Both the position numbers and the translations under genes were made by a program. A stretch of DNA of 64,000 bases, taken from contig JAOLXX010000014.1 of assembly GCA_028343155.1 (NCBI GenBank), forward strand, positions 1 to 64,000, read 5' to 3'. Source of the stretch: Polaribacter sp. (GTDB lineage: Bacteria; Bacteroidota; Bacteroidia; Flavobacteriales; Flavobacteriaceae). The notes beneath the pieces are model-generated. The model was not told the DNA's origin. It ran no database searches and saw only the letters and a program-made list of their open reading frames with translations. Shown one piece after another: positions 9,333-33,542 of the stretch (positions within the stretch are counted from its first letter, which is position 1; each line of letters opens with the position of its first letter).

Positions 9333-9352
9333 AACAAAATTAATAGTTGAAT

Positions 9353-15599: not shown

Positions 15600-15629
15600 T
15601 ACTTTTGGTAAACCAGATTGGAAAACCAA
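15600..15629 (+). promoter_or_regulatory. Promoter -7 element with tandem operator dyads before PL17
   Basis: TACTTTTG (15600-15607) matches the Bacteroidetes -7 consensus TAnnTTTG. Overlapping it are two dyads, TTGGTAAACCAG at 15605-15616 and TTGGAAAACCAA at 15618-15629, offset by 13 bases. A regulator bound here would block the polymerase. The -33 element is poorly matched. The same arrangement occurs upstream of susC and of the MFS gene, pointing to a common regulator, probably the GntR protein at 28283. Confidence 0.7.
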
Positions 15630-15647
15630 ATTTAATTTATCCTTTTT

Positions 15648-17903
15648 ATGAAAATTTCATATTTTTTTTTAATGAGTTGTTTGCTAATCGTTTCTTTTTC
15701 TTGTATTAAAAATAAGACTTCTGATGCAAAAGAAGATTATAATTCTCAGCATCCAAGTTTAATATTAACCAAACAAGGTGTAAAAGACATTCGATCTAAA
15801 TTAGGGAGTATTCCGATTTTCGATAATACATTAGAAAAGGTAAAGGCAGAAATAGATGCAGAAATTGAATTAGGAATAGAGGTGCCAGTACCAAAAGATT
15901 ATTCAGGTGGTTATACGCATTCTAAGCATAAACGTAATTGGTTTGTGTTACAAAAAGCAGGTCTTTTGTATCAAATTCTAGATGACGAAAAATATGCAAA
16001 ATATGTAAAAGACATGTTAATGCAATATGAGGAAATGTATAAAACATTACCATTGCATCCAAAAACGAGATCGTATGCTAGAGGTAAATTATTTTGGCAA
16101 TGCCTAAACGATTCAAATTGGTTGGTTTATGTAAGCCAGGCTTATGATTGTGTTTACAATTATTTATCAGAAGAAGAACGTAACAAATTAGAAACAAATT
16201 TATTTAGGCCATTTGCAGACCATATTTCTATAGATAGTCCGCAATTTTACCAAAGAGTTCACAATCATAGTACATGGGGAAATGCAGCTGTTGGTATGAT
16301 TGGGTTGGTTATGAATGATGAAGAGTTGATTGACCGTGCTTTATACGGGATTAAAGATTTAAAGTTAAATACGGAAGAAAAAGATGATGATGGCGGATTT
16401 TTAAATAAAAATGGTAAAGCAGGTTTTTTAGCAAATATAGAAGAGCCTTTTTCGCCAGACGGTTATTATAATGAAGGGCCTTATTATCAACGGTATGCAA
16501 TGTATCCTTTTTTAGTTTTTGCAGAAGGATTACATAACGTAAAACCAGAGTTAAAAATATTTGAATATAAAGAAGGTGTATTGTTAAAATCAATTAATGC
16601 CTTGTTAAATTTATCTGATGCAGATGGTGAGTTTTTTCCGTTGAACGATGGTCAAAAAGGAATGTCTTATTACAATAGTGCTTTAGTTACAGCAGTAGAT
16701 GTTTCGTATCATTTTGGTACGCAAGATACAGGTTTATTAACAATAGCGTCTGAGCAAGATCGCGTATTACTAGACGATTCTGGTTTAGCAGTAGCACTCG
16801 GTATTAAAAAAGGGTTAAAAAAACCTTTCAATAAAAAATCTATTAACCTTTCTGATGGGCCAAAAGGAAAACAAGGAGGTGTTGCCATATTAAGAAACGA
16901 AGATCTAGAATTGGTATTTAAGTATGCTGCACAAGGATCTAGTCATGGTCATTATGATAAGTTATCTTGTTCGTTATATGAAAAAGGCGAAGAAATACTT
17001 CAAGATTATGGTTTATCACGATTTGTAAATATCGAACAAAAAGGTGGAGGGAATTACCTAAAGGAAAACAAGACATGGGCAAAACAAACCATAGCGCATA
17101 ATACTTTAACACAAAATGAAATGGCTCATTTTAATGGAAAGTACGAAATAGGTAGTCAGCATCATTCAGTACTAAACTATTTCTCTTTAGACAATGAAAA
17201 CATTCAAGTCGCAAGTGCAAAAGAAAGTAATGCATATCCGGGGACAGAGATGCTTCGTACGATGGCAATTATAAAAAACGAAGATTTTGAAAAGCCATAT
17301 ATGCTAGATATCATGAAGGTAACTTCTAATAAAGCAAATCAATACGATTTCCCATATTACTTTTTAGGACAAGTCATACAAACAAACTTTGAATATAAAA
17401 CACCAGAAGTTTTAAAACCTTTAGGTTCAAAAAACGGGTATCAGCATTTATTTGTTGAAGCTACTGCCAAGGCTAAAAATAAAAACTCTAAGTTCACTTG
17501 GATGAATAATCGTACGTTTTATTCGCTAACCACAGTAACAACTAATAAAGACGAATTGTTATTCACTAGAATAGGCGCTAATGACCCTGAATTTAATTTA
17601 CGACGAGACCCAGCTTTATTATTAAGGAGAAAAAACACAAAAAACACAATTTTTGTTTCAGTAATAGAAGCACATGGTAGTTATAGTCCTGTTTCAGAAT
17701 CTGCAGCTAATTCAAAAAGTATTACAAAAGAATTAAAAGTGGTTTATAATGATGAAACTTATACAGCTATAAAAATAACACATATAAATGGGAATAGTAA
17801 ACTATTTATAACATCAAATACAAACACTTCAAAAGAAACATCACACAAATTAGTAATCAATAGTAAGAATTATGAGTGGTCAGGTTCTTATTACTTTAAA
17901 TAA
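15648..17903 (+). CDS. PL17 oligoalginate lyase, lipoprotein
   Basis: Exolytic alginate lyase that degrades unsaturated oligomers to monomers. The N-terminal part is an alpha/alpha toroid with the HNHSTWGNAA and NEGPYYQRYA segments that carry the catalytic Asn/His and Tyr region in PL17; the C-terminal half is the heparinase II/III-like beta-sandwich with GSSHGHYDKL. A lipoprotein signal ends at Cys19 (SFSC), implying a periplasmic, membrane-anchored enzyme. Full length at 751 residues. It has its own promoter with operator dyads and is followed directly by kdgF, whose substrate is the monomer PL17 releases. Confidence 0.93.
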   Translation: MKISYFFLMSCLLIVSFSCIKNKTSDAKEDYNSQHPSLILTKQGVKDIRSKLGSIPIFDNTLEKVKAEIDAEIELGIEVPVPKDYSGGYTHSKHKRNWFVLQKAGLLYQILDDEKYAKYVKDMLMQYEEMYKTLPLHPKTRSYARGKLFWQCLNDSNWLVYVSQAYDCVYNYLSEEERNKLETNLFRPFADHISIDSPQFYQRVHNHSTWGNAAVGMIGLVMNDEELIDRALYGIKDLKLNTEEKDDDGGFLNKNGKAGFLANIEEPFSPDGYYNEGPYYQRYAMYPFLVFAEGLHNVKPELKIFEYKEGVLLKSINALLNLSDADGEFFPLNDGQKGMSYYNSALVTAVDVSYHFGTQDTGLLTIASEQDRVLLDDSGLAVALGIKKGLKKPFNKKSINLSDGPKGKQGGVAILRNEDLELVFKYAAQGSSHGHYDKLSCSLYEKGEEILQDYGLSRFVNIEQKGGGNYLKENKTWAKQTIAHNTLTQNEMAHFNGKYEIGSQHHSVLNYFSLDNENIQVASAKESNAYPGTEMLRTMAIIKNEDFEKPYMLDIMKVTSNKANQYDFPYYFLGQVIQTNFEYKTPEVLKPLGSKNGYQHLFVEATAKAKNKNSKFTWMNNRTFYSLTTVTTNKDELLFTRIGANDPEFNLRRDPALLLRRKNTKNTIFVSVIEAHGSYSPVSESAANSKSITKELKVVYNDETYTAIKITHINGNSKLFITSNTNTSKETSHKLVINSKNYEWSGSYYFK

Positions 17904-17922
17904 AAACAATAAATACAAATAT

Positions 17923-18309
17923 ATGAAACGGTTCAGTGAAAAGTACATTATCACAAAAGAAATGGAATGGGAAAAACTTGGAGGAGGTGTCTCAAGAAAA
18001 TTCTTAGGATATGATAATCAAATTATGATGGTAAAAGTGAAATTTGATAAAGGCGCATTAGGTGCCCCACATCAACATTTTCACACACAGACAACCTATT
18101 GTGTTTCTGGAAAATTTGAATTTGAAATTGATGGGGTAAAGCAAATTGTAGCAGCAGGAGATGGAGTGTATATAGAACCTAATTTATTGCATAGTGCAAT
18201 TTGTATAGAAGAAGGCATGTTAATAGATACATTTAGTCCCGTAAGAGAAGATTTCTTAAGTGGTGATGCCGTATCTTATTTTGGAGATAACAATCCTAAA
18301 AAAAGTTAG
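17923..18309 (+). CDS. kdgF: KdgF-type cupin, unsaturated uronate linearisation
   Basis: A 128-residue single-domain cupin. The metal-binding pattern HxHxHxQ (His50, His52, Gln56) and the second-motif His90 match KdgF, which converts the cyclic 4,5-unsaturated uronate monomer from alginate or pectin to the open-chain keto acid DEH. The frame is open back to 17872 inside the PL17 gene, but the ATG at 17923, 19 bases after the PL17 stop, gives the usual length and N terminus. Coupling to PL17 supports the role. Cytoplasmic, no signal. Confidence 0.9.
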   Translation: MKRFSEKYIITKEMEWEKLGGGVSRKFLGYDNQIMMVKVKFDKGALGAPHQHFHTQTTYCVSGKFEFEIDGVKQIVAAGDGVYIEPNLLHSAICIEEGMLIDTFSPVREDFLSGDAVSYFGDNNPKKS

Positions 18310-18400
18310 CTTTATAATATTGTATTATCAAGTAGAAGTCTGTGGGATAGAGCCTTAATTTTTTTTTAAAAAAAAATAGTTTTCAAAAAATATTTTTTTT

Positions 18401-18431
18401 TTTGGTTTTAACATAATTTTAAGTATATTTG
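18401..18431 (+). promoter_or_regulatory. susC promoter (TTTG-N19-TATATTTG)
   Basis: TTTG at 18401-18404, 19 bases, then TATATTTG at 18424-18431 is a full match to the Bacteroidetes primary-sigma promoter pattern. The -7 box overlaps the first operator dyad that follows. Confidence 0.75.
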
Positions 18432-18479
18432 GAGAACCAAACTGGTAAACCAGATTAATAAATCAGAGTGGTGAGCCAG
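18429..18479. promoter_or_regulatory. Operator cluster upstream of susC
   Basis: TTGGAGAACCAA (18429-18440), CTGGTAAACCAG (18442-18453) and GTGGTGAGCCAG (18468-18479) are three versions of one dyad. The first two are 13 bases apart and the third is 26 bases further, i.e. two steps of the same register. The cluster begins inside the -7 box and extends past the likely transcription start. Confidence 0.7.
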
Positions 18480-18654
18480 TAATAAATAAAAAAAGAACAG
18501 GTGAACACCTATCCTTTTTAAAGTAATTTTTACTTCAATTTCGAGGGAAGTAATAACAAGTAACTAAAACATGCTTAGCACAAAGCCACAAAAAATTATA
18601 TTTAAATTTTTGTTTGTGTTGTTCATTTTTAGTTGATTTTTTTAACAAATTAAA

Positions 18655-18698
18655 ATTAAATTCAAATTAAATTCAAATTAAATTCAAATTAAATTCAA
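18655..18698. repeat. 11-bp tandem repeat in susC leader
   Basis: Four uninterrupted copies of ATTAAATTCAA, followed by a decayed fifth, end 15 bases before the susC ATG at 18714. The period equals about one DNA helix turn and the sequence is unstructured A/U-rich leader in RNA, which may keep the ribosome site open. Confidence 0.8.
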
Positions 18699-18713
18699 AC
18701 TAAATTAAAGATT

Positions 18714-21700
18714 ATGAGTCAAAAAACAAAGTTGATTTTAGTGTTTATGTTTTTTTGCGGGATTGGTATCTACGCTCAAGAATCATACTTGCTAAAAGGA
18801 ACAGTCGCATCGGCTGTAGAAAATATTCCACTACCTGGAGTTAATGTTGTTATTTCCAATAGTTCATCAGGAGCTTCTACTGATTTTGATGGAAATTATC
18901 AAATTCAAGTAAAAAAAGGAGATGTATTATCATTTTCTTATTTAGGTTTTGTAACTAAATCAGTTACTATATCTAACCAAAAAACAGTAAACGTTGTTTT
19001 AGTAGAAGATGCTAATTCATTAGAAGAAATTGTAGTAGTAGGTTATGGTTCTCGTAAAAAGAGTGACATTACAGGAGCAGTATCTTCAGTTACTGCAGAT
19101 GAGTTAAATGCTTTTCCTGTTTTAAATGCAGCGCAAGCATTACAAGGTAGAGCAGCTGGTGTAGTTGTACAATCTAATAATGGTGGTGAGCCAGGTGCTC
19201 CTATTAGTATTAAAATTAGAGGAAATACTTCTATTAGGGCAAGTAGTGCTCCATTAATTGTAGTAGATGGTTTTGTTGGAGCAAGTATGCCACAAGCAAA
19301 TGATATTAAATCTTTAGAGATTTTAAAAGATGCATCTGCAACGGCTATTTATGGTTCTAGAGGTTCTAATGGGGTAGTAATGGTAACTACTAAAAAAGGT
19401 AAAAGCGGTAAATTAGTTGTTGAGCTAAATACTACTTTTGCTGTTCAAAACACTGCTAATAAATTAGACTTATTAAATGCAGATGAATTTGCAGATTATC
19501 AAAACCAAATTAGAGTTAATCAAGGTATTGCTTCTGCATACGTTCAAGGTAGTGCAAATACAGATTGGCAAGACTTAATTTATACTGCTGGTAATACGAC
19601 TAATCATCAAATTTCTTTTTCAGGAGGTACAGAGAAAGTAAATTTCTACGCTTCTGCAAATTATTTTGAACAAGATGGTATCTTAGTTAATTCTGGTTTT
19701 GAGAGAATGACATTTTTATCAAATTTAGATGCACAAGTTACAGATAAATTAAAGTTAGGAATGAACCTTTTTGGAAGTAGAGGTACTAAAAATGGTGTTG
19801 CTACACAATCTAACGGTTCAGTTACTGTTGGTGGAGATGATGTTATTTCTATTGCAATGCGTTTTGCACCAGATGTAGATATTACAGATGCAAACGGAGC
19901 TTTTACAACAAACACAATTGGAGACCCTGTTGATAACCCTTATGCTGTTGCAACAGAAAGAAAAGACGAAACTAAAACAGATAATTTTAGAGCAAATTTT
20001 TATGGAAGCTATGATATTTTAGAAAATCTTACTTTCAAATCTACATTAGGTTTTAGTACTAAAAACCAAACAAGAGGTATTTACCAACCATCTACATTAA
20101 TAATTACTTCTTCTGCAGAAGGTGGTAAAGCTTCTATGGGAAATTATAGAACAACAAACGTTTTAAACGAAAACTACTTAACTTATAAAAAAGAAATAGG
20201 AAAAGGGACTTTAACATTATTAGGAGGTGCTTCTTACCAAAAAAATGTAGCAGAATATTTTTCGGCTGCTGGTAATGGTTTTATTTCAGATAGTTTTTCT
20301 TATTATGCTTTAGACAAAGCAACAACTTTATTACAGCCAGCCTCTTATTTACAAGAATATGAAATACAATCTGTATTTGGTAGAGTAAATTATGATTTTA
20401 ATGACAAGTATTTAATTACAGCTACGGTAAGAAGAGACGGTGCTTCTAATTTTGCTGCAAATCATAAATATGCAACATTTCCATCTGCTGCTTTAGGTTG
20501 GAAAGTTTCAAATGAAGAATTTTTAAAAGACAATGAAGCTATTACTAACTTAAAACTAAGAGCAAGTTATGGTGTTACAGGTAATCCATCAATAGCGCCT
20601 TACGAATCTTTAGCTAGACTTTCTAGCCTTTATGCTTCTAGTAATGGACAAACGGTAAATGCTATTTCTACAGACCAAGCGGCTAACCCAAATTTAAAAT
20701 GGGAATCTTCTTACCAAGCAAACTTTGGTGTAGATTTAGGTTTATATAATGGTAAAGCAACTATTTCATTAGATTACTATAATATTGATACTAAAGATTT
20801 AATTCTAAGTAATGCGGGTATTCCAGAATATTTTGGAAATATAAATACTGGAAGTTTAGCAAATTTAGGGGAAATTAATAATAGTGGATTTGAAATTTCT
20901 TTAAACACTAGAAATATTTCTAATGACAATTTTAGTTGGAATACAGACTTCAATTTATCGGCTAATAAAAATAAAGTAGTAGCTTTAGTAAACGATGCAG
21001 ATGTTTTTAATAATGGAGCGCCAAGTTATTTTAGTGTTGATAGAAGTAATATTTTAAGAGTAGGTGAAGAAGTTGGTCTTTTCTGGGGTTATGAATATGC
21101 AGGAGTTTACCAAGGTGGAGCTTTACCCGCAGGCACAGCTACTATTGCAGGTGGTGTTGCAGGAGATCCTTTATTTAGCGATCTAGATGCTTCTGGAGAT
21201 ATTGGTGCTGATGATAGAACAATTATTGGAAATCCAAATGCAGATTATACTTTTGGTATTACAAATAACTTTAGCTATAAAAACTTTGATTTGAGTATCT
21301 TTTTTCAAGGTTCTCAAGGTGGAGAAATTTTTAACATGACGAATGTTCAGTTAAATAATGGTGATGCAAATACTACTAGAGATTACTTTAATAGTGCTTG
21401 GACACCCACTAATACAGATACAAATTCACCAAGAGTAGGGAATAACAGTAATAGAGAAATTTCTTCTCGTTTTGTTGAAGATGGTAGTTATGTAAGATTG
21501 AAAAATATAGCTGTTGGTTATAATTTTCCTAATGAAGTTATTAAAAAGTTAGGTTTGGATAATGTAAGACTTTCTGTAAGTGCACAAAACTTATTAACTT
21601 TTACAAATTACTCTGGTTTAGATCCTGAAGTTAATTATGCTGGTGCTGCTGGAGATAACAATACTTCTTCTAATACTGTTCAAGGTTTTGATTTTGGAAA

Positions 21701-21749
21701 TTATCCAACAGTAAAATCAGTTAACTTTAGTCTTAATATTAAATTTTAA
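18714..21749 (+). CDS. SusC-like TonB-dependent receptor
   Basis: Outer-membrane TonB-dependent transporter of 1011 residues. A Sec signal ends at YAQ (about residue 22), followed by a carboxypeptidase-regulatory-like beta-sandwich (about 25-100, with LPGVNV and DFDGNYQI), the VVVGYGSRKKSDITGAVSSV plug start, and a long 22-stranded barrel ending in aromatic/charged FSLNIKF. It is paired with susD 24 bases downstream and preceded by regulated promoter elements. In this locus the cargo is most likely alginate oligosaccharide. Codon use is strongly biased, as for a highly expressed gene. Confidence 0.95.
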   Translation: MSQKTKLILVFMFFCGIGIYAQESYLLKGTVASAVENIPLPGVNVVISNSSSGASTDFDGNYQIQVKKGDVLSFSYLGFVTKSVTISNQKTVNVVLVEDANSLEEIVVVGYGSRKKSDITGAVSSVTADELNAFPVLNAAQALQGRAAGVVVQSNNGGEPGAPISIKIRGNTSIRASSAPLIVVDGFVGASMPQANDIKSLEILKDASATAIYGSRGSNGVVMVTTKKGKSGKLVVELNTTFAVQNTANKLDLLNADEFADYQNQIRVNQGIASAYVQGSANTDWQDLIYTAGNTTNHQISFSGGTEKVNFYASANYFEQDGILVNSGFERMTFLSNLDAQVTDKLKLGMNLFGSRGTKNGVATQSNGSVTVGGDDVISIAMRFAPDVDITDANGAFTTNTIGDPVDNPYAVATERKDETKTDNFRANFYGSYDILENLTFKSTLGFSTKNQTRGIYQPSTLIITSSAEGGKASMGNYRTTNVLNENYLTYKKEIGKGTLTLLGGASYQKNVAEYFSAAGNGFISDSFSYYALDKATTLLQPASYLQEYEIQSVFGRVNYDFNDKYLITATVRRDGASNFAANHKYATFPSAALGWKVSNEEFLKDNEAITNLKLRASYGVTGNPSIAPYESLARLSSLYASSNGQTVNAISTDQAANPNLKWESSYQANFGVDLGLYNGKATISLDYYNIDTKDLILSNAGIPEYFGNINTGSLANLGEINNSGFEISLNTRNISNDNFSWNTDFNLSANKNKVVALVNDADVFNNGAPSYFSVDRSNILRVGEEVGLFWGYEYAGVYQGGALPAGTATIAGGVAGDPLFSDLDASGDIGADDRTIIGNPNADYTFGITNNFSYKNFDLSIFFQGSQGGEIFNMTNVQLNNGDANTTRDYFNSAWTPTNTDTNSPRVGNNSNREISSRFVEDGSYVRLKNIAVGYNFPNEVIKKLGLDNVRLSVSAQNLLTFTNYSGLDPEVNYAGAAGDNNTSSNTVQGFDFGNYPTVKSVNFSLNIKF

Positions 21750-21773
21750 TAAATAATTTAAAAACATAATAAT

Positions 21774-23324
21774 ATGAAAACAACATATAAATATTTATTC
21801 TTATTATTGATGAGTCTATCAATAGTTGGATGTTCAGATTTAGTTGAAGAGCCTGAAGGTCTATTAGCACCAGATGGTTTTTTCAATACTCCAAAAGACA
21901 TACAGACAGCTGTAGATGGTGCTTTAACGCACGCAATTAATGAGAAATTTTGGGGTAGAAAACTTTCTATAGCATTAATGTTACGTTCAGATATGGTAAA
22001 CCTTAATTCTACCGAAACAAGAAGAATGGAACATAACAGTTTAACTACGCTTACTAACAATGGAATGATTAGCGAGTTTTGGTTAAAAACATATCAAGGA
22101 ATTGCAGCTGCTAATTTAGCAATTGATGGAGCTAGTTATGTAGATGTTGCTGAGAATCTTAAAAACCCAGTAACTGCACAAGCTTATTTTATGAGAGCAT
22201 TTTACTATTTTCATTTAGTAAGACAGTTTGGTGCTGTTCCTTATATAGATGCACCTTTAACGGATGCAGTTGCAGCGGGTTCTATTAGTAGAACGCCAGT
22301 AGATGAAGTATATGCTAATATCATTTCAGATTTAGAATATGCTAAAACTTGGTTGCCAAATACACAAAGCTCTAGAGCAATACCTGCAAAATCTGCAGCA
22401 AGTTCTTATTTAGCTTTAGTTCATTTAACTATGGGTGAATATCAAAAAGCTTTTGATGAAGCTAAAGATGTTATCAATAAAAAAGTAACTTATAATGTAG
22501 GCTTAGACGCAAATTTTCAAAACTTATTTAATGCAGAAGTTATAGATTCTTCTATAGAACCTATTTTTGCATTAGATTATAATAATTTTGAAGCTCCTAA
22601 TAATGGATATGATCAAATAGCACCTATGGTTGGTATTAGAGGAGATCAAAGAGGTTCAGGTGGTGGTTGGTCTGTTGGAAGCCCTACACTTGCAGTTTAT
22701 ACTTCTTGGGATGCTGGGGATTATAGAAGAGCTGTTAGTTTAGATGATAGAGCAAATATTGCAGATGCTAGTAAAGTAGTTCATACTGTAGATTATACTC
22801 AATTTGATGTAAGTGGGCATAAGTTTGCTCAAAACACTCCATATATTGCTAAATATATGAGATATCCTGGAGCATTTGCTAGAGGAAGTGCAAGAGCAAC
22901 AAGTCATAATTACTCTATGATGCGTTATGCAGAAGTATTATTAATTGCTTCTGAAGCAGCTGTAGAAATTGGAGACAATGGATCTGCTTTAATGTATTTA
23001 AATGAAGTTAGAGCTAGAGCTAGAATGGGTGGTGCTACAAAAACAGGTGCTGATGAAGAATATACTTTTGCTGCAAGTACTATTCCTGCAGATCATACAG
23101 GAACAGTTACGGTTAATGATGTATTAGAAGAGCGTAGACTTGAGTTAGCTTTTGAATGTAAAAGATGGTATGATATTGCAAGAAGAAAAATTGGTGCAAC
23201 TGTATTTAGTGCTTCTGGTTTTGAAGGAGCTAAAAGCGATTTTAGTGCAGATGATTATTTAATGCCATTACCTGCAGATGAGATTGAAAGAAACCCTAAT
23301 TTAACACAAAATCCTGGGTACTAA
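21774..23324 (+). CDS. SusD-like glycan-binding lipoprotein (RagB/SusD)
   Basis: Outer-membrane surface lipoprotein that forms the lid of the SusC pore. The lipoprotein signal ends at Cys20 (IVGC), followed by helical TPR-like repeats and the family's C-terminal pattern (MRYAEVLLIASEAA, EERRLELAFECKRWYDIARR, ending in NPNLTQNPGY). Length 516 residues is normal. Binding of alginate oligomers is inferred from the surrounding lyases. Confidence 0.95.
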   Translation: MKTTYKYLFLLLMSLSIVGCSDLVEEPEGLLAPDGFFNTPKDIQTAVDGALTHAINEKFWGRKLSIALMLRSDMVNLNSTETRRMEHNSLTTLTNNGMISEFWLKTYQGIAAANLAIDGASYVDVAENLKNPVTAQAYFMRAFYYFHLVRQFGAVPYIDAPLTDAVAAGSISRTPVDEVYANIISDLEYAKTWLPNTQSSRAIPAKSAASSYLALVHLTMGEYQKAFDEAKDVINKKVTYNVGLDANFQNLFNAEVIDSSIEPIFALDYNNFEAPNNGYDQIAPMVGIRGDQRGSGGGWSVGSPTLAVYTSWDAGDYRRAVSLDDRANIADASKVVHTVDYTQFDVSGHKFAQNTPYIAKYMRYPGAFARGSARATSHNYSMMRYAEVLLIASEAAVEIGDNGSALMYLNEVRARARMGGATKTGADEEYTFAASTIPADHTGTVTVNDVLEERRLELAFECKRWYDIARRKIGATVFSASGFEGAKSDFSADDYLMPLPADEIERNPNLTQNPGY

Positions 23325-23416
23325 TTTTTGTTATTACATTTTTTCAAAATTAATGTAAAACAACAATTACAAAATTTCAATAGAAGTTTAACAACTTCGC
23401 TATAAAAATTAGAGAT

Positions 23417-23450
23417 AAGAATCTATTGGATTAACCAGTAGATTCTTTCT
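23417..23450 (+). terminator. Hairpin after susD
   Basis: AAGAATCTA (23417-23425) pairs with TAGATTCTT (23439-23447); inside, TGG/CCA extends the stem around a short AT loop. A weak T-rich tail follows. It may attenuate read-through into the NRAMP-like gene rather than stop transcription fully. Confidence 0.6.
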
Positions 23451-23492
23451 CGTTTATAACTAATTTAGAATAACTTTAAAAAACTAACATCA

Positions 23493-24743
23493 ATGGCAAC
23501 AACTAGTATTTCTTTTTCAGAAAAAATAAAAGCAAAACTTAAAGACTTCGGTCCTGCATTTTTTATAATTGGTTATGTGGTAGGTACAGGAAGTGTAACT
23601 TCTATGGTGGTGTCTGGAGCTAAATTTGGCTTAAGTCTATCTTGGGCGCTACTCTTATCTTGTTTTTTTACCTATTTTTTATTGGTATCAATTAGTAAGT
23701 TAACTATTGTTACTGGAGATACATTAATGTTTAATTTTAAAAAGACTTTTGGTAAACCTGTAACTATTTTTATAATTGCGGCACTTCTTGTTTCTATAGT
23801 TTCATCATGTATTGGTGTTATGGGTGTAGTTGCAGAGGTGACTATGGAATGGATCAATGTAAAAACAGCTATCTCTTTTTTAAATAAACCAATAGTTTCT
23901 ATTTTCTTTATTACATTATTAGTTGGTCTTTTCTGGACAGGAAAGCATGAAAATTTCATAAAAGTGATGAGTATGTTGGTCGGTTTTATGGCACTTGCTT
24001 TTATTATTACCAGTTTTATGGTTGTAAAAGAATCCGGAAAATCGATTGTAGATTTTTTCCCGGCATTGCCTGAAGGCGATAATATGGGATTGATCATTGC
24101 AGGAATTGTAGGGACAACAATGGCAGGGGTTTGCTTGGCTTCTAGAAGTATTTTAGTACAAGAACAAGAATGGGGATTAGACGATTTAAAGAAAGAAAAG
24201 AAAGATGCCATGTCTTCTATGATACTAACGTTTTTAATTAGTCTAGCCATCATGATTAGTGCTACCGGAACTCTTTATTTTACAGGAACCAAAGTAGATA
24301 GCGCAACAGATATGATGCATGCACTTGGTCCTTGGGCTGGAGATTTTGCATTGACATTATTTACATTAGGTATTATTGGAGCAGGATTGTCTTCAATATT
24401 TCCAAACCTATTATTATTTCCTTGGTTAATTGCAGATTATACAGGAACAGAGCGAAACATGAAAAGACCTTTGTTCAAGTTAATTGTTGTTTTAGTTGCA
24501 TTATCTGGCTTAATAGTACCTATTTTAGGAGGTAAACCAGTTTGGATTTTAATAGCATCACAAGCATTAAGTCCATTTGTAATGCCTTTAATAACGTTAT
24601 TTCTAATAATTTTATTGAATAAAACTGAAGTTATGAAATCACACAAAGCCAAATTAGGAATGAATATAGCATTATGTGCAACGTTTATTTTTAATTGCTA
24701 TATGTTATTTGTAGCCATCAAAGGATTTTCAAACTTTATATAA
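23493..24743 (+). CDS. Second NRAMP-fold transporter lacking metal-site motifs
   Basis: Paralogue of 11344-12636, 416 residues and about 11 membrane segments. TM1 shows IIGYVVGTGSVTSM where DPGN would be, and the TM6 region shows GTTMAGVCLASR where MPH would be, so the Mn/Fe site is missing in this copy as well. The shared GTGSVTSM, WALLLSCFF and AGLSSIFPNLL segments define a distinct branch. It lies downstream of susCD and 29 bases before the ManA-like gene, so it probably brings a monomeric sugar acid or a counter-ion into the cytoplasm; this is inference. Confidence 0.8.
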   Translation: MATTSISFSEKIKAKLKDFGPAFFIIGYVVGTGSVTSMVVSGAKFGLSLSWALLLSCFFTYFLLVSISKLTIVTGDTLMFNFKKTFGKPVTIFIIAALLVSIVSSCIGVMGVVAEVTMEWINVKTAISFLNKPIVSIFFITLLVGLFWTGKHENFIKVMSMLVGFMALAFIITSFMVVKESGKSIVDFFPALPEGDNMGLIIAGIVGTTMAGVCLASRSILVQEQEWGLDDLKKEKKDAMSSMILTFLISLAIMISATGTLYFTGTKVDSATDMMHALGPWAGDFALTLFTLGIIGAGLSSIFPNLLLFPWLIADYTGTERNMKRPLFKLIVVLVALSGLIVPILGGKPVWILIASQALSPFVMPLITLFLIILLNKTEVMKSHKAKLGMNIALCATFIFNCYMLFVAIKGFSNFI

Positions 24744-24772
24744 TTTACAAAAAACTAGACAGTTTATAGAAT

Positions 24773-25867
24773 ATGAATGAACAACTAGAAAAATACGCAC
24801 AAATACCTCTAAAACAACTTTCTAATAGAGTTTGGAGAACATACGAAGGTGGCGCATTAATAGATAGGTGGAAAAAAACGTCTCCTGAAGTAGATAATAG
24901 CATGCCAGAGCAATGGATTATGTCTACAATTACTGCTCGTGGAAAAAACAGACCAGAAAACGAAGGACTTTCACTTATTGAAACCAATGACGGAGTTCTG
25001 CCTTTAAAAACTATAATCGACTCTAATTTAGAATTATTTTTAGGTAAAAAACTTGCAAATAAATACGTCACAACGGGCGTTTTAATAAAAATGTTAGATT
25101 CTTTAGAACGTTTAACCGTTCAAGTACATCCTGATAAAGAATACGCTAAAACAGTTTTTAATTCAGAATTTGGTAAAACCGAATCTTGGTACGTGTTAAA
25201 TACACGCGAAATAGATGGAGAAAAGCCTGTTGTTTATATGGGTTTTAAAAAACATGTTACCAAAGAGTTATGGAAAACCCATTTCGAAAATCAGAACATT
25301 CAAGGTCTATTAGATTGTTTACATAAAATTGAAGTAAAAGCAGGTGATGCTTTTATGATTTATGGTGGTGTACCGCATGCAATTGGTGCTGGTTGTTTTT
25401 TAATGGAAGTACAAGAACCAACTGATTATACCATGCGTGTAGAAAAAATAACGCCAAAGGGTTTAAAAATAGTTCCAGAATTAATTCATCAAGGTGTTGG
25501 AGAAGAAAAAATGTTAGCATGTTTTCATTACAACACTTATACTTTAGACGAAGTACTTCAACAATGGAAAATAGAACCCGAAGTTATTGACAGTTCAAAT
25601 GAATTTACATTAAGCACATTATTCAACAAAAAACACACCAACTGTTTTGGTTTAAGCGAATTACTTTTAGAAGGAAGTCACACTGTTAAAGGAAACGCCT
25701 CTTTTTATGTTGCTGTTATTTATTCTGGCGATGGAACAATGACGTGTAACGGACAAGAGTTTGAATACTCTCAAGGTGATGAAATATTTATTTCAGCAGC
25801 TATTTCTGAAATTACATTTAATTCAAAAATAGCATCAAAAATATTACTCTGTTATCCACCAAATTAA
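24773..25867 (+). CDS. Class I mannose-6-phosphate isomerase-like cupin
   Basis: Zinc cupin aldose-ketose isomerase of the type I phosphomannose isomerase family, 364 residues. The metal ligands are visible as VQVHPD (Gln and His), KTESWYV (Glu) and VPHAIGAG (His), followed by the EPTDYTMR segment. The family interconverts mannose-6-phosphate and fructose-6-phosphate. It sits directly before UxuB and UxuA, which turn fructuronate into mannonate and then KDG; mannuronate to fructuronate is the same chemistry as mannose to fructose, so a mannuronate isomerase role is an attractive inference. The ordinary ManA role is not excluded. Confidence 0.82.
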   Translation: MNEQLEKYAQIPLKQLSNRVWRTYEGGALIDRWKKTSPEVDNSMPEQWIMSTITARGKNRPENEGLSLIETNDGVLPLKTIIDSNLELFLGKKLANKYVTTGVLIKMLDSLERLTVQVHPDKEYAKTVFNSEFGKTESWYVLNTREIDGEKPVVYMGFKKHVTKELWKTHFENQNIQGLLDCLHKIEVKAGDAFMIYGGVPHAIGAGCFLMEVQEPTDYTMRVEKITPKGLKIVPELIHQGVGEEKMLACFHYNTYTLDEVLQQWKIEPEVIDSSNEFTLSTLFNKKHTNCFGLSELLLEGSHTVKGNASFYVAVIYSGDGTMTCNGQEFEYSQGDEIFISAAISEITFNSKIASKILLCYPPN

Positions 25868-25891
25868 ATTCCAATTACTAAAATATTTAAA

Positions 25892-26704
25892 ATGAATTTA
25901 TTCAATATAGAAAATAAAATAATACTCGTAACTGGGTCCTGTGGTGTGCTTGGTGGCGGAATCGCAAAATATTTATTAGAGAATAATGCAACCGTAATAT
26001 TGTTGCATTATAAAGAAGCACCATTATTAGAAACCATAAATACGTTTAAAAAAATAAGCAACAAAGTAGCAGGCTATGTTTGTAATGTTGTTGAAGAAAA
26101 GAGCCTTCAAGAAGTAGCCTCAAAAATAATGGACACTTATGGCAAAATAGATATTCTTATAAATGCTGCAGGCGGAAACAAACCAGGCGCAACTGTTGGT
26201 CCAAATCAATCAGTTTTTGATGTGGATGTAGAACAATTTAAACAAGTCGTTGATTTAAATTTATTTGGAAGTATTATTCCGTCTTTAGTTTTTGGTAAAC
26301 AGATGGCTAAAAACAAAAAAGGGGCTATTATTAACCTATCTTCTATGGCTGCAGATAGAGCTATTACACGTATAATGGGCTATTCTGCCTCTAAAGCGGC
26401 TATAGATAATTTCACAAAATGGATGTCTGTAGAGTTGGCTCAAAAATATGGCGATGGTATGCGCGTAAATGCGGTAGCACCAGGGTTTTTTATAGGAAAT
26501 CAAAATAGAGCTTTGTTAACTAACGATGATGGAAGTTACACAGATAGAGGCAATACAATCATAAAAAACACACCTATGAATCGCTTTGGTGAAGCAGACG
26601 AACTCAATGGAGCAATACATTATTTGTGTTCCGAAGCATCAAAATTTGTAACAGGAATTGTAATTCCTGTAGATGGTGGATTTAGTGCGTTTAGTGGTGT
26701 ATAA
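25892..26704 (+). CDS. uxuB: SDR-type D-mannonate oxidoreductase (fructuronate reductase)
   Basis: Short-chain dehydrogenase of 270 residues with the cofactor loop VTGSCGVLGGG, the TGxxGVLG variant typical of SDR-type fructuronate reductases, then NAAGG, YSASKAA (catalytic Tyr/Lys) and a VIPVDGGFSAFSGV tail. It would reduce D-fructuronate to D-mannonate. It is followed 17 bases later by UxuA, which uses mannonate. This is the SDR analogue, unrelated to the long-chain UxuB of enteric bacteria. Confidence 0.85.
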   Translation: MNLFNIENKIILVTGSCGVLGGGIAKYLLENNATVILLHYKEAPLLETINTFKKISNKVAGYVCNVVEEKSLQEVASKIMDTYGKIDILINAAGGNKPGATVGPNQSVFDVDVEQFKQVVDLNLFGSIIPSLVFGKQMAKNKKGAIINLSSMAADRAITRIMGYSASKAAIDNFTKWMSVELAQKYGDGMRVNAVAPGFFIGNQNRALLTNDDGSYTDRGNTIIKNTPMNRFGEADELNGAIHYLCSEASKFVTGIVIPVDGGFSAFSGV

Positions 26705-26721
26705 TTTTTAGATAAAGGAAA

Positions 26722-27900
26722 ATGAAGCAAACATGGCGTTGGTACGGGCCAAAAGACCCAGTATCTTTATTAGATATAAAACAAGCAGGAGCAACAGGAA
26801 TTGTTTCGGCATTACATCATGTTCCAAATGGAGAAATTTGGACGATTGAAGATATTGAAGAACGAAAAGCAATCATAGAAAAAGCAGGACTCACTTGGAA
26901 TGTAGTGGAGAGTATTCCTGTGAATGAAGAGATTAAAACACGTTCAGGTAACTTTCAAAAATATATAGAAAACTATAAAACAAGTATTGAAAATTTAGCG
27001 AATTGCGGAATTACAATCGTGTGTTATAATTTTATGCCTGTGTTAGATTGGACCAGAACATCTTTAGATTATGAACTCAACGATGGTTCAAGAGCATTGC
27101 AATTTGATGCTACTGCATTTGCTGTATTTGAATTATATATCTTAAAAAGATCTGGAGCAGAAAACAATTATACTGATGCTCAAAAAAAAGCAGCAAAAAT
27201 CTATTTTAAAAATGCATCAGAAACGGATAAAAAACAACTCACTAAAAATATTATAGCAGGTTTGCCAGGAGCAGAAGAAGGATATACTCTTGAGCAATTT
27301 GAGGGTATTCTAGATGCCTATGTGAATATTGATGCTCAAAAATTAAGAGAAAACTTGGTTCTTTTCTTAAAAGATATTATTCCTACAGCAGCACAAAATG
27401 AAGTTTTAATGTGCATTCATCCAGACGACCCCCCTTTTTCAATATTAGGATTACCAAGAGTAGTAAGTACAAAAGAAGATTTTGATTTTTTGTTTTCTCA
27501 TGTACCACATATTTCAAATGGCATTACTTTTTGCACCGGTTCATTGGGAGTAAGAGCAGATACTAATTTAGTGGAACTATTTCAAAATTTTGCAGAGCGC
27601 ATACACTTTTTACATTTAAGAAGTACGCAACGCGATGATAAAGGAAATTTTTATGAAGCAAATCATTTAGAAGGAGATGTAGATATGTTTAGTATTGTAA
27701 AAGAAGTAATACTTGAAGAAAGAAGACGAAAAACTGTTGGAAGAAAAGATGTACGAATTCCAATGCGGCCCGATCATGGCCATCAAATGCTAGATGATTT
27801 GGTAAAGAAAACAAACCCAGGATATTCAGCAATTGGAAGACTGAGAGGTTTAGCTGAGTTAAGAGGGTTGGAATTTGGGGTGTCTAAAAGTTTAATCTAA
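26722..27900 (+). CDS. uxuA: Mannonate dehydratase UxuA
   Basis: D-mannonate to 2-keto-3-deoxygluconate dehydratase (xylose-isomerase-like TIM barrel), 392 residues. Family hallmarks: [12 protein letters not shown] near the N terminus, SALHHVP, the [13 protein letters not shown] segment, CIHPDDPP (metal Cys/His/Asp) and the C-terminal RPDHGHQML metal/catalytic motif. Cytoplasmic. Together with the SDR before it this gives fructuronate to KDG, feeding the KdgK/KdgA pair at 32407-34208. The window encodes a second, non-homologous dehydratase (ManD) at 8115. Confidence 0.95.
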
Positions 27901-28282
27901 AAACTCACTTTTTATAGAACCTGTTTTATTTGAGTCAAAACCCAACTGCTTTAGTCACTTTTATTACATAACAAAAAAACATCAATATATTAATTTTTTT
28001 TCTCTATATTTGATAATCGAAATTGGTTAACCAGTATGGGTTATTGGAGTTAAATAGATTTTTATATATAACTACATTATTGTTTCAATTTCACATCAGT
28101 TATTAAAAAAAAATATTAAAAAGTAGGTGTCTTTGAGAACTACTTCAATGCCAGTAATTATTTATCAACAACGCCAGAAAATTCTTTTTCAAAAATTAAG
28201 TATTATAAATTAGAAGTTTCACATTATTTTTTTTTAAAATTTAAGCCTACAAAGTTAATCAAAAAAGGACAAAATAGAATTT
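27901..28282. other. Intergenic region with gntR promoter and operator
   Basis: No gene of convincing length. It carries a -7 box TATATTTG (28005-28012) and the operator dyad below; beyond them about 250 bases of AT-rich leader before the gntR start codon show no clear structure. Confidence 0.55.
28005..28034 (+). promoter_or_regulatory. Probable gntR promoter and autoregulatory operator
   Basis: TATATTTG at 28005-28012 fits TAnnTTTG; no good -33 element is seen. TTGGTTAACCAG (28023-28034), whose core TGGTTAACCA is a perfect palindrome, lies about ten bases downstream, at the expected transcription start. Unlike the other sites only a single dyad is complete here. Confidence 0.6.
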
Positions 28283-28984
28283 ATGAATTTAGAATTGCTA
28301 ACAAAAACTGAAAATCAAAAAGTTCAAAATCTATTAATAATTGGGATTAGAGATTTAATTAATTATAAAAACTTGGAACCTGGAGAAAAATTGCCTTCTG
28401 AAAGAATGCTTTCTGAAAAATTTAATGTTACTAGAAGCAATATTAGAGAAGCAATTCGAAAATTAGAATTCTATGGATTGTTAAAATCCATTCCACAAAG
28501 TGGAACTTTTGTTGCAAATATTGGTATTATTGCTTTAAATGGAATGATTGAAGATATTTTAAGATTAGACGAGCCAGATTTTAAATCTTTAGTAGAAACA
28601 AGAATTTTGTTAGAACTTAAAACAGTAAGACTGGCATCATTAAGAAGAACAGATGAAGATATAGCTCAATTAAAGGAAGCATTGGATGCTTATATCGATA
28701 AAGTTTCGAATGGTAAAGACGCTGTACAAGAAGATTTATTGTTTCATTTAGCAATTGCAAAAGCAAGTGGTAATAGCACAATGAATAAATTTATGCTAAG
28801 CATTACCCCAGAAATTATCTTAAAATTTGAAAAACATCATGTTTGTGATGACGATTTAGCACAAAGAGGAATAGATGATCATCAAGCTATTTTTAATGCA
28901 ATTATAGATAAGAAGCCACAACTAGCAAAACAAAAAATGAAAGAGCATTTTAAAGAACTTTATTCATATTGCTATAATTTATAA
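28283..28984 (+). CDS. GntR-family regulator, FadR/FCD subgroup
   Basis: A 233-residue repressor or activator. The N-terminal winged helix (about 15-80) shows LEPGEKLPSERMLSEKFNVTRSNIREAIRKLE, split here as PGEKLPSER and TRSNIREAI motifs, and the rest is the helical FCD ligand domain (Asp/His residues around EDLLFHLAIAKASGN and DDHQAIF) which in this subgroup binds a metal-bound carboxylic acid such as a uronate or KDG derivative. FadR-type GntR proteins bind TGGTnnnACCA-like dyads, matching the repeated element in this locus. Ligand and sign of control are inferred. Confidence 0.9.
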   Translation: MNLELLTKTENQKVQNLLIIGIRDLINYKNLEPGEKLPSERMLSEKFNVTRSNIREAIRKLEFYGLLKSIPQSGTFVANIGIIALNGMIEDILRLDEPDFKSLVETRILLELKTVRLASLRRTDEDIAQLKEALDAYIDKVSNGKDAVQEDLLFHLAIAKASGNSTMNKFMLSITPEIILKFEKHHVCDDDLAQRGIDDHQAIFNAIIDKKPQLAKQKMKEHFKELYSYCYNL

Positions 28985-29011
28985 ATAAGGTTAAATTTTA
29001 GTACAATTAAA

Positions 29012-29064
29012 TTTGACAGTTAGACATTTTTGATTACTTTTGGTAAACCAAATTGGTTTACCAA
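29012..29064 (+). promoter_or_regulatory. MFS-gene promoter with mirror-image operator pair
   Basis: TTTG (29012-29015), 19 bases, TACTTTTG (29035-29042) form a full promoter. TTGGTAAACCAA (29040-29051) and its reverse complement TTGGTTTACCAA (29053-29064) follow with 13-base spacing and overlap the -7 box. This is the cleanest copy of the locus operator. Confidence 0.75.
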
Positions 29065-29089: not shown

Positions 29090-30373
29090 ATGAAAATAAA
29101 AGGTTTAAGATGGTGGATTATTTTCCTCATATTTATTGCAACTGTAATCAATTACATAGATCGCACTGCTTTCGCACTGCTATGGCCAGAAATGGGTAAA
29201 GATTTAGGAATGAATAATTCCGATTATGCTTTAATGCTAAATATCTTTCTATTCACCTATGCTGCAAGTAAATTTTTGTCTGGTAGATTATATGATCAAA
29301 TTGGAACCAGAGTCGGTTTCGTTGTCTCTATTGTTGTTTGGTCTGCAGCCGCAGCCCTACATTCTTTGGCAAGAGGAATAGTTTCATTATCTATAGTTCG
29401 TGGATTACTTGGTCTTGGTGAAGCAGGATTATGGCCAGGTGCTGTAAAAAGTAATGGCGAATGGTTTCCTGCAAAACAAAGGGCGTTAGCCCAAGGTATT
29501 TTCAATGCTGGAGCTTCAATAGGTAATGTGATAGCCCCTGTTATCATTGTTTATTTATATGCCCAATTTGGATGGAAATCCACTTACATTATATTAGGTG
29601 TGTTAGGCCTACTTTGGGTTATCCCTTGGTTAATCATAAACAAATCTAAACCAAAAGACCATCCTTGGATTACTGAGGAGGAAAGAAATATGTTGCTTAA
29701 TGATCGAAAGGAAAATAATGATGTTGTTGTTGAAGGAGCTAAAAGTCTAAGTGTACCTCAAATATTAAGTCACAAAGAGCCATGGGGAATATTGCTATGT
29801 AGATTTTTTATAGAACCAATTTGGTGGTTTTTTGCAGGTTGGATGCCCATCTATCTAAACGGTAAGTTTGGACTGAGTATAGAAGAAATTGGGAATACGA
29901 TGTGGATATCATATCTTATGGCAGCTGCTGGTGGAATCTTAGGAGGTTTGTTTACTGAAGCAATTATCAAAAAAACTTCAATAGATTTTGGAAGAAAAGC
30001 AAGTATCGTACTTGGAAGTCTATTAATCATAATTGGATTTGTTTCCATTATATGCTTTGTAAATGATTCTAATTATATGACATTCATATTTTTAGCTGGC
30101 TTAGCCCTGTTTGGATTTCAATTTGCAATAGGTAATATCCAAACGCTATCTAGTGATTTATTCAGAGGACCATCTGTTGGTACCCTAGCAGGATTAGCCG
30201 GTACAATTGCAGCATTTTCTCCTATTATAATGAACTGGTTTATTGGAAGAATAACTGAAGGAGGATCTTATACACCTGCCTTCATAGCGATAACACTTTC
30301 CGTAGTTTTGGCTGTGTTATCTATCTTCTTATTAATTAGAAAAGTTAAGCAAGTTGTCAATTTAGAAAACTAA
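29090..30373 (+). CDS. MFS hexuronate-type transporter (ACS family)
   Basis: Inner-membrane major facilitator of 427 residues with 12 predicted membrane segments. The NYIDRTAFALLWPEM start of TM1, GRLYDQIGTRVG loop 2-3 motif and RGLLGLGEAGLWPG in TM4 are typical of the anion:cation symporter group that includes ExuT. Likely substrates are DEH or other uronate monomers made by PL17 in the periplasm. It is preceded by the strongest operator pair in the locus and followed 40 bases later by the probable DEH reductase, consistent with import then reduction. Confidence 0.9.
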   Translation: MKIKGLRWWIIFLIFIATVINYIDRTAFALLWPEMGKDLGMNNSDYALMLNIFLFTYAASKFLSGRLYDQIGTRVGFVVSIVVWSAAAALHSLARGIVSLSIVRGLLGLGEAGLWPGAVKSNGEWFPAKQRALAQGIFNAGASIGNVIAPVIIVYLYAQFGWKSTYIILGVLGLLWVIPWLIINKSKPKDHPWITEEERNMLLNDRKENNDVVVEGAKSLSVPQILSHKEPWGILLCRFFIEPIWWFFAGWMPIYLNGKFGLSIEEIGNTMWISYLMAAAGGILGGLFTEAIIKKTSIDFGRKASIVLGSLLIIIGFVSIICFVNDSNYMTFIFLAGLALFGFQFAIGNIQTLSSDLFRGPSVGTLAGLAGTIAAFSPIIMNWFIGRITEGGSYTPAFIAITLSVVLAVLSIFLLIRKVKQVVNLEN

Positions 30374-30413: not shown

Positions 30414-31178
30414 ATGAGTAAATTAAATGAAAAAGTAGCTGTAATTACTGGAGCTACTGGAGGAATTGGTTTTGAAGTAGCAAAAAGATTAGGTAAAGAT
30501 GGATTTACTGTAATTTTAAATGGTATAGAAGATGATGCTGGAGCTGAAAGAGTAAAAGAACTTACTGCGGAAGGAATTACAGCTGAATATTTTGGATTTG
30601 ATGTTACAAACGAAGAGGCTGTAACTTCTAACATAAATACAATTGGAGAAAAGTATGGTAAAATTGATGTGCTTGTAAATAACGCAGGAGGATTAGGTGG
30701 AAGATCTCGATTTGAAGAAATGACAACTGAGTTTTACAGATTTGTAATGGCTCTAAATCTTGATTCAGCATTTTTCGCTTCAAGAGCCGCAATACCATTT
30801 TTAAAGAAAAGTGATTATGCTTCTATTATTAATTATACATCTAACGCAGGATGGAATGCAGGAGGACCAGGAGCTGGTATTTACGGAACATCTAAAGCAG
30901 GAGTACACGCAATAACAAGAGCATTAGCAAAAGATTTAGCAGAATATGGAATTAGAGTAAATGCAGTATCTCCAGGTACCATAGATACGCCATTTCATGC
31001 TCAAATTAAATCAACAAAACCAGAAGTATTTGCTTCTTGGGCAAACAATATTATGTTAGGTAGATTAGGAAAACCCGAAGATGTTGCAGGTGTTGTTTCT
31101 TTTTTAGCAGGTAAAGATTCAGCTTTCTTAACTGCAGAAACTATCCAAGTTGGTGGTGGACAAGCTTTAGGAATCTAG
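30414..31178 (+). CDS. SDR oxidoreductase, probable DEH reductase
   Basis: A 254-residue short-chain dehydrogenase with TGATGGIG cofactor loop, NNAGG, the YGTSKAG catalytic segment and a C-terminal IQVGGGQALGI. Length and gene context (MFS uronate transporter before, KDG kinase and aldolase after) match the DEH reductases described from alginate-degrading flavobacteria and Sphingomonas, which reduce 4-deoxy-L-erythro-5-hexoseulose uronate to KDG with NAD(P)H. Cofactor preference cannot be settled by eye. A GU-containing hairpin terminator follows. Confidence 0.82.
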   Translation: MSKLNEKVAVITGATGGIGFEVAKRLGKDGFTVILNGIEDDAGAERVKELTAEGITAEYFGFDVTNEEAVTSNINTIGEKYGKIDVLVNNAGGLGGRSRFEEMTTEFYRFVMALNLDSAFFASRAAIPFLKKSDYASIINYTSNAGWNAGGPGAGIYGTSKAGVHAITRALAKDLAEYGIRVNAVSPGTIDTPFHAQIKSTKPEVFASWANNIMLGRLGKPEDVAGVVSFLAGKDSAFLTAETIQVGGGQALGI

Positions 31179-31201: not shown

Positions 31202-31237
31202 AACTTCTCTTTATGAATTTAAAGAGAGGTTTTTTTA
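31202..31237. terminator. Bidirectional terminator between DEH reductase and lacI
   Basis: AACTTCTCTTTA (31202-31213) pairs with TAAAGAGAGGTT (31220-31231) with one GU pair, followed by a T tract on the + strand. It overlaps the last codons of the convergent lacI gene, whose stop is at 31219-31221. Confidence 0.8.
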
Positions 31238-32253: not shown

Positions 32254-32260
32254 TTTTTTA

Positions 32261-32313
32261 TATATTTGCTTAAACGTTTAAACAAATATAGTTACTTTGT
32301 TTATATAATCAAA
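32261..32313. promoter_or_regulatory. Divergent lacI/kdgK promoters sharing one LacI operator
   Basis: TTAAACGTTTAA at 32270-32281 is flanked on the left by TATATTTG (+ strand, 32261-32268) and on the right by the same box on the - strand (32290-32283), giving a nearly perfect 30-bp palindrome. For lacI a TTTG on the - strand (32313-32310) lies 19 bases upstream of its -7 box, a complete promoter. The + strand box lacks a clear -33 partner. Confidence 0.75.
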
Positions 32314-32358
32314 ATTTCAAGTACCAAAAGAAGTTTTGATTTTATTTTAAAGAACTGC

Positions 32359-32370
32359 TTAAACGTTTAA
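32359..32370. promoter_or_regulatory. Second LacI-type operator upstream of kdgK
   Basis: TTAAACGTTTAA again, 89 bases from the first site and 36 bases before the kdgK ATG. Two identical sites at this distance suggest looping or a roadblock. Confidence 0.7.
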
Positions 32371-32406
32371 CTAGAAAATGATACACTTATAAAAAAATTA
32401 AACAAA

Positions 32407-33453: not shown

Positions 33454-33482
33454 TTAGGTTTAATTGTTGAATTGTGTAAATG

Positions 33483-33494
33483 TTTAAACGTTAC
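33483..33494. promoter_or_regulatory. Imperfect LacI-type site before the KDPG aldolase gene
   Basis: TTTAAACGTTAC lies in the kdgK-kdgA gap and matches 10 of the central positions of the two perfect sites upstream. It may give the aldolase gene separate control. Confidence 0.45.
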
Positions 33495-33542
33495 ATAACG
33501 CAACAATTACACGATTAAATAAACAAACAATTACACAAAATT

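Follow-up and report, generated by a model that had tools for sequence, protein, structure and literature searches.

Ahead of the alginate-utilization genes of a Polaribacter sp. (contig JAOLXX010000014.1, positions 1 to 64,000, a stretch of 64,000 nucleotides that we call the window), palindromic TGGTnnACCA dyads form a lattice with a 13-bp step, in fixed register with the promoters. Genome comparison indicates that these dyads very probably serve as operators for the product of gntR at 28283, a FadR-type GntR protein and a repressor resembling AusR. In Zobellia galactanivorans, AusR is described as a GntR protein that represses most of the alginate genes; its operators are single, double or triple, and alginate breakdown products stop its binding to them (PMC7874173, PMC8286568, in the parts available to us). 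Given this precedent, an alginate GntR repressor with multiple operators is not new, and the original prediction, made from the sequence of the window, appears largely right without being novel. As in the system so described, a FadR/FCD-type GntR protein is encoded in the alginate locus, and single, double and triple operator motifs precede alginate genes; the difference is that 79 loci served here to quantify the 13-bp lattice and its lock on the -7 box, and that arrays of four slots occur. The 13-bp spacing rule was not found in the literature searched; the primary AusR paper, which lay outside that search, may give it.

The 13-bp register of the dyads

Dyads were scored over the 10 letters of the TGGTnnACCA palindrome, and we call slots the successive dyad positions in the 13-bp register. 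The eight dyads initially listed are all present where they had been placed (those matching 8 to 10 letters in Table 1). Moreover, two degenerate dyads, at 18455 and 28010 (7/10 letters each), stand in the same register, so that the susC array has four slots, one of them weak, and the gntR array two, with a weak first slot. The first dyad had been said to overlap the TAnnTTTG -7 box at three promoters; the overlap is confirmed, and it extends to all four (boxes at 15600, 18424, 28005 and 29035), the overlapping slot at 28005 being the degenerate dyad. At each of them, the box starts 5 bases ahead of slot 1. The accompanying remark that no other copies had been found inside genes does not extend to the loose dyad YTGGNNNNCCAR, which occurs within genes of the window at 10665, 15437 and 21226; TTGGTAAACCAA with up to three mismatches is mildly enriched in the window (177 occurrences against 128.5 by chance, standard deviation 12.2).

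The lattice was examined in 79 loci, the best of 424 relatives (at most 20.7 kb each, 1.52 Mb in total), with a scan derived from an alignment of 15 orthologues. Among dyads with at least 9/10 letters, 151 of the 154 pairs lying within 60 bp are spaced by multiples of 13 bp (126 at 13, 23 at 26 and 2 at 39; 3 elsewhere), which bears out the spacing first seen in the window, and the 14 named genera (34/79 loci) use multiples of 13 exclusively. Out of eight control motifs tried on the same loci, six gave no pair and one gave 3 scattered pairs; control YTGGANNTCCAR, a near variant of the dyad motif, gave 9 pairs, 6 of them at multiples of 13. With promoters left unselected, dyads peak at offsets of 5 (106 cases), 18 (102) and 31 (23) from TAnnTTTG, for a mean of 2.7 per offset.

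Selecting promoters with slot 1 or slot 2 filled, by which the occupancy of these two slots is set by construction, gave 125 promoters in 75 loci. Slots 1-2 are occupied in 67 of them, slots 1-3 in 30, slots 1-4 in 5 and slot 2 alone in 20, with 3 other patterns; their profile has no dyad enrichment one slot upstream (offset -8). The genes behind them, assigned by best BLAST match to the proteins of the Polaribacter genome itself, are susC-like (71), gntR (21), MFS (9), a secreted protein (5), PL6 (4), PL17 (4), PL7 (3) or unassigned (3), and no open reading frame (ORF) lies within 500 bp in 5 cases; 67 of the 71 susC-type genes match best the second susC of the genome, on contig 12, and not that of the window. 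Over 124 promoters picked by dyads at slots 1 and 2, the TGG and CCA letters of these slots are conserved at 83-100%. The promoter logo also has a TTG-like element 22-20 bases ahead of the -7 box.

In the 1.92-Mb draft genome (81% complete), perfect tandem dyads with the 13-bp step occur five times, all at the two alginate clusters: the window has three (15605, 18429, 29040), and contig 12 has the remaining two (75930, 77014). On contig 12, two AusR-type promoters (75925-77038; 5926-7039 of locus L014) precede a type IX secretion-tail protein gene and a second susC-susD pair, which a PL6-type lyase gene adjoins. Allowing up to 2 mismatches gives 11 places genome-wide, and 0 for the reversed control. 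Abundance of the dyad across the genome away from alginate genes, which would speak against the proposed regulation, is thus not seen for perfect tandem dyads, although loose dyads taken singly are common. The latter total 123, compared with 58 for a control; a lone dyad is therefore not diagnostic, and single dyads were rejected as a marker of the regulon. The box joined to the first dyad (TAnnTTTGGNNNNCCAR, zero mismatch) matches ten places, of which five are the promoters described and one is the 15618 dyad read in reverse; the other four were rejected as promoters, all lying within ORFs of 959-1274 bp.

Table 1. Coordinates of the sites, genes and predicted elements in the window
Feature	Position	Strand	Match or remark
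PL17 promoter, TAnnTTTG -7 box TACTTTTG	15600-15607	+	motif match
PL17 promoter, operator slot 1 TTGGTAAACCAG	15605-15616	+	10/10 letters
PL17 promoter, operator slot 2 TTGGAAAACCAA	15618-15629	+	9/10
PL17-type oligoalginate lyase gene	15648-17903	+	NF042990 E 4.3e-195 (under curated cut-off); PF05426, PF07940
susC promoter, -7 box TATATTTG	18424-18431	+	motif match
susC promoter, operator slot 1 TTGGAGAACCAA	18429-18440	+	9/10
susC promoter, operator slot 2 CTGGTAAACCAG	18442-18453	+	10/10
susC promoter, slot 3, degenerate dyad TTAATAAATCAG	18455-18466	+	7/10
susC promoter, operator slot 4 GTGGTGAGCCAG	18468-18479	+	8/10
Putative antisense RNA of the susC leader (model R1)	18486-18585	-	E 3.8e-10 in own genome; terminator-like hairpin end 18519-18490
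Degenerate antisense -7 box TGGCTTTG	18581-18588	-	no exact box here; TAnnTTTG/A in most aligned relatives
susC (TonB-dependent receptor)	18714-21749	+	followed by susD, Nramp, PMI-like, SDR and uxuA on the same strand
gntR upstream, -7 box TATATTTG	28005-28012	+	motif match
gntR upstream, slot 1, degenerate dyad TTGATAATCGAA	28010-28021	+	7/10
gntR upstream, operator slot 2 TTGGTTAACCAG	28023-28034	+	10/10
Relic of PL7 alginate lyase C-terminus in gntR leader (31-residue tail)	28132-28224	+	84% identical to L054, at most 71% to other loci
Candidate decayed ancestral gntR operator AAGTTAATCA	28252-28261	+	3 letters off TGGTTAACCA; suggested by comparison
gntR, AusR-like repressor	28283-28984	+	GntR winged helix-turn-helix and FCD: PF00392, PF07729
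MFS promoter, -7 box TACTTTTG	29035-29042	+	motif match
MFS promoter, operator slot 1 TTGGTAAACCAA	29040-29051	+	10/10
MFS promoter, operator slot 2 TTGGTTTACCAA	29053-29064	+	10/10
MFS transporter gene	29090-30373	+	followed by an SDR gene, 30414-31178

The GntR protein as the likely ligand of the sites

Regarding the regulator, an orthologue was called at E 1e-40 or better in 50 of 199 family genomes. The tandem dyad (at most 1 mismatch) is present in 50/50 of these and in 9/149 of the others (Fisher p 4e-38); the nine have exactly one each, and the reversed control matches in 7/199 genomes. As all 39 family genomes with a PL17 match (E 1e-60) also carry the GntR gene, only the reverse case can separate the regulator from the alginate genes, and tandem dyads are still present in all 11 genomes that have GntR but lack such a PL17 match, indicating that the sites go with the regulator. 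The link between dyad and GntR gene is an association. The motif itself agrees with the FadR type that had been proposed: FadR-subfamily operators are palindromes with TKGT/ACMA boxes, and in those of UxuR two nucleotides separate GT from AC (PMC4494728), as they do in the dyads described here; the logo of the 124 promoters gives such an AT-rich palindrome. The survey reports weaker extra half-sites 7-12 nt off the site centre (PMC4494728), whereas whole palindromes recur here every 13 bp. NanR of Escherichia coli is likewise an FCD-type GntR protein on repeated sites, but its sites are direct repeats of TGGTATAW (PMC4494728) and not palindromes. NanR is among the nearest solved structures (6on4, 6wfq), although the model of the GntR protein is of moderate confidence (predicted local distance difference test, pLDDT, 77.6) and superposes poorly, the nearest folds being GntR proteins with TM-scores of ~0.5.

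From the sites, lattice, promoter register and gene link seen in this comparison, we infer binding, repression, cooperativity and response to a ligand as follows. Head-to-tail dimers had originally been invoked; since each site is palindromic, one symmetric GntR dimer per TGGTnnACCA dyad is the natural reading, and dimers would lie side by side. In Flavobacterium psychrophilum, the TAnnTTTG box is placed at -12 to -5 (PMC9723704, in the part available to us), and on that scale the stretches covered would be, approximately, -7 to +5 (slot 1), +7 to +18 (slot 2), +20 to +31 (slot 3) and +33 to +44 (slot 4). Dimers on the DNA would mask the start site together with the last bases of the -7 box, by which RNA polymerase may be excluded or stalled. 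The proposal that the 28283 protein binds the dyads and represses over the -7 element thus finds support from comparison, in the co-occurrence of the gene, in the alginate genes served and in the position over box and start site. The exact 13-bp step suggests that adjacent dimers touch or must fit one another; the successive helix faces put forward for them amount, by arithmetic alone, to about 1.24 turns per step (at 10.5 bp/turn), and each dimer would stand roughly a quarter turn (~86 degrees) from the last. A breakdown product of alginate would free the repressor. Residues D151, H155, H200 and H222 are invariant across 27 aligned GntR sequences, and we take them to be the metal-site pattern of FCD domains binding acidic ligands; an effector resembling 2-keto-3-deoxygluconate (KDG) or 4-deoxy-L-erythro-5-hexoseulose uronate (DEH) would fit. 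As the gntR promoter of relatives mostly uses slot 2 alone and susC promoters two to four slots, self-control may be the weaker.

The same promoters raise a rather unlikely, but serious, alternative, namely that the dyads are independent GntR operators and that the 13-bp step reflects nothing more than the need to cover both the -7 box and the start with a site each, with no contact between dimers. That 19/21 gntR promoters in the relatives' loci use slot 2 alone suggests that a single site may suffice, and the register of the -7 box would by itself set slots 1 and 2. However, the step is kept farther from the box, in the pairs at 26 and 39 bp, and none lies at 12 or 14. The lattice could also have been born and maintained by tandem duplication of a 13-bp unit, of which single-period direct repeats are typical, but this is improbable: at the five variable positions, the two slots of a given promoter resemble each other (0.635, slot 1 against slot 2) no more than slots shuffled across promoters do (0.631, p 0.35), and lone gntR sites retain the slot 2 distance to the -7 box. 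The spacing is thus not merely fresh duplication, which finds no support as its cause, and the 13-bp step seems to be kept by need. Highly improbable, too, is binding by another regulator such as the LacI-type protein encoded at 31219-32253, within the same locus. Indeed, the motif is of the FadR-subfamily type, a dyad precedes gntR itself in 18/29 relatives, and the tandem dyads track the GntR gene, the one gene of the two that the comparison covered. Finally, we give almost no credence to a role of the palindromes as leader RNA hairpins: 29040-29064 scores terminator-like, but slot 1 starts upstream of the predicted start site, letters and not pairing alone are conserved (see the TGG and CCA figures above), and neither the -7 register nor the 13-bp step has a rationale in RNA.

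Several observations weigh against the repressor lattice as we read it. The peak at offset 5 is partly built in, the TTG of the dyad being the end of the box, which is not so for the peak at 18, and counts over species are not independent events. The incompleteness of the draft makes the size of the regulon a lower bound, and of the six tandem places with 2 mismatches, one is 28010 and five fall outside both alginate clusters. In addition, TGGTNNACCA stands at most 200 bp ahead of gntR in 18/29 relatives (14 within 40 bp) and is absent there in 11/29, so self-control is either not universal or not always so marked. The likeness to AusR comes from published descriptions and not from direct sequence comparison with the Z. 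galactanivorans protein; Zobellia is not named among the 79 loci kept of the 424 relatives.

A putative antisense RNA of the susC leader

A two-hairpin element lying between susC and its operators was found by looser patterns in 49/71 susC-type leaders, as well as in the window. It probably reads on the minus strand, where 49 sequences were aligned over stretches of 73-112 nt. At one position of the terminator stem, the minus strand gives U-G, U-A or C-G in 48/49 sequences, where the plus strand would give C-A in 30, and over 15 pairs the stems pair in 721/734 cells on the minus strand versus 681 on the plus strand (38/49 sequences favour minus, 3 plus and 8 neither). A sense-strand attenuator was rejected on this better pairing. 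Covariation is modest, 4/15 pairs varying on both sides, and the first stem is nearly invariant. A leftward -7 box lies upstream of the element in 42/49 leaders, versus 2-8/49 for control patterns (counts of 43/50, 46/55 and 42/49 derive from slightly different stretches); the window has only a degenerate one, so its antisense RNA may be weak or dead.

A model built from this alignment (R1), for which the sequence of the window was one of the 49 used, finds 55 minus-strand places at E 1.1e-5 or better in the 79 loci and the window (52/79 loci plus the window), of which 49 are the training sequences themselves; the remaining six include one identical copy removed before alignment. An AusR-type dyad lies 9-94 bp from each of the 55 places, and 54/55 have the start of a long opposite-strand ORF 73-152 nt away, the 49 leaders having been drawn from susC-type promoters. 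Across the 199 family genomes, R1 matches at E <1e-5 occur in 37, namely 36/50 GntR-bearing ones and 1/149 others, this last match being a terminator at an ORF end. Between 1e-5 and 1e-3, 12 further genomes match, nine of them without the GntR gene and eight of these nine without an adjacent susC match. Weak matches were viewed individually, ten in genomes without GntR, two in GntR genomes (L203, L209) and two in the Polaribacter genome: L209 is a susC leader, and L204, in a genome without the GntR gene, precedes an ORF that is faintly susC-like (27% over 176 residues), so that this match may be related to the element. No susC match adjoins any of the remaining twelve. The Polaribacter genome itself has one strong place, in the window (next best E 0.03), and no match at its second susC (L014). 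Rfam gave no match at E 0.5 over window positions 14000-35000.

Short RNAs antisense to susC homologues are known from Bacteroides as the DonS family, 78-128 nt long (PMC7366714, in the part available to us). The RNA predicted here would likewise be short and antisense to the 5' region of susC, with 73-112 nt aligned against the 78-128 nt reported there; unlike DonS as that part describes it, it belongs to Flavobacteriaceae and adjoins AusR operators, is predicted from sequence, and is likened to DonS by the description of that family. Section 18 of PMC9723704, a source seen in part, puts its antisense list forward as a start for such flavobacterial studies; among the papers listed, a further literature search returned nothing else on point.

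Many alginate susC genes of marine Flavobacteriaceae may accordingly be under a double lock, the AusR lattice and a dedicated antisense RNA downstream of it, a proposal on which we are evenly divided. A convergent antisense RNA of ~75-110 nt would terminate 9-94 bp short of the AusR operators, and its link to AusR is drawn from the R1 matches at E <1e-5 in 36/50 GntR-bearing genomes against 1/149 others. Once AusR is released, it would still pair with the susC leader, a CUUC-loop-GAAG stem-loop facing its own complement, and this pairing might set the level of susC expression or the rank of alginate among sugars.

The surrounding locus and its significance

Genes for PL17-, PL7- and PL6-type lyases, susCD, MFS, a pfkB-type kinase and KDPG aldolase share the stretch with gntR, which marks an alginate utilization locus. 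The run from susC through susD, Nramp, PMI-like and SDR to uxuA presumably forms an operon; AAATTCAAATT-like repeats stand in tandem at 18650-18705, directly ahead of the susC start codon. Two Nramp-family transporter genes (11344-12636 and 23493-24743) lie amid the uronate/alginate genes, and a single ORF (9347-11239) fuses a shikimate/gluconate-kinase-like domain to a 6-phosphogluconate dehydrogenase. The LacI-type gene is divergent from the pfkB-type kinase and KDPG aldolase genes (31219-34208 overall), ahead of which the window has no tandem dyad.

The gntR leader appears to have a history of its own. In the window, and likewise in L054, a close Polaribacter contig, gntR starts ~250-290 bases downstream of the operator with only a PL7 tail between; at the same place, L061 has an intact PL7 gene (the one locus checked with Pfam), and a PL7-type tail ends at most 350 bp ahead of gntR in 54/79 loci. 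In 14/29 relatives, gntR starts at most 40 bases after TGGTNNACCA. It is likely that a deletion joined the PL7 promoter to gntR and that the old gntR operator decayed, 28252-28261 being its candidate remnant.

Much of the carbon on offer in the sea comes as alginate, a major source, and to our knowledge few regulators have been described for its utilization by flavobacteria. The operator rule, TGGTnnACCA 5, 18 or 31 bases past the start of TAnnTTTG, is strict enough for predicting AusR regulons from sequence, and it lets one ask why the step between GntR dimers has to be 13 bp. Should the antisense RNA prove real, DonS-type control would extend from gut Bacteroides to marine Flavobacteriaceae and would be tied there to one known repressor, so that the two layers of control could be separated by simple deletions.

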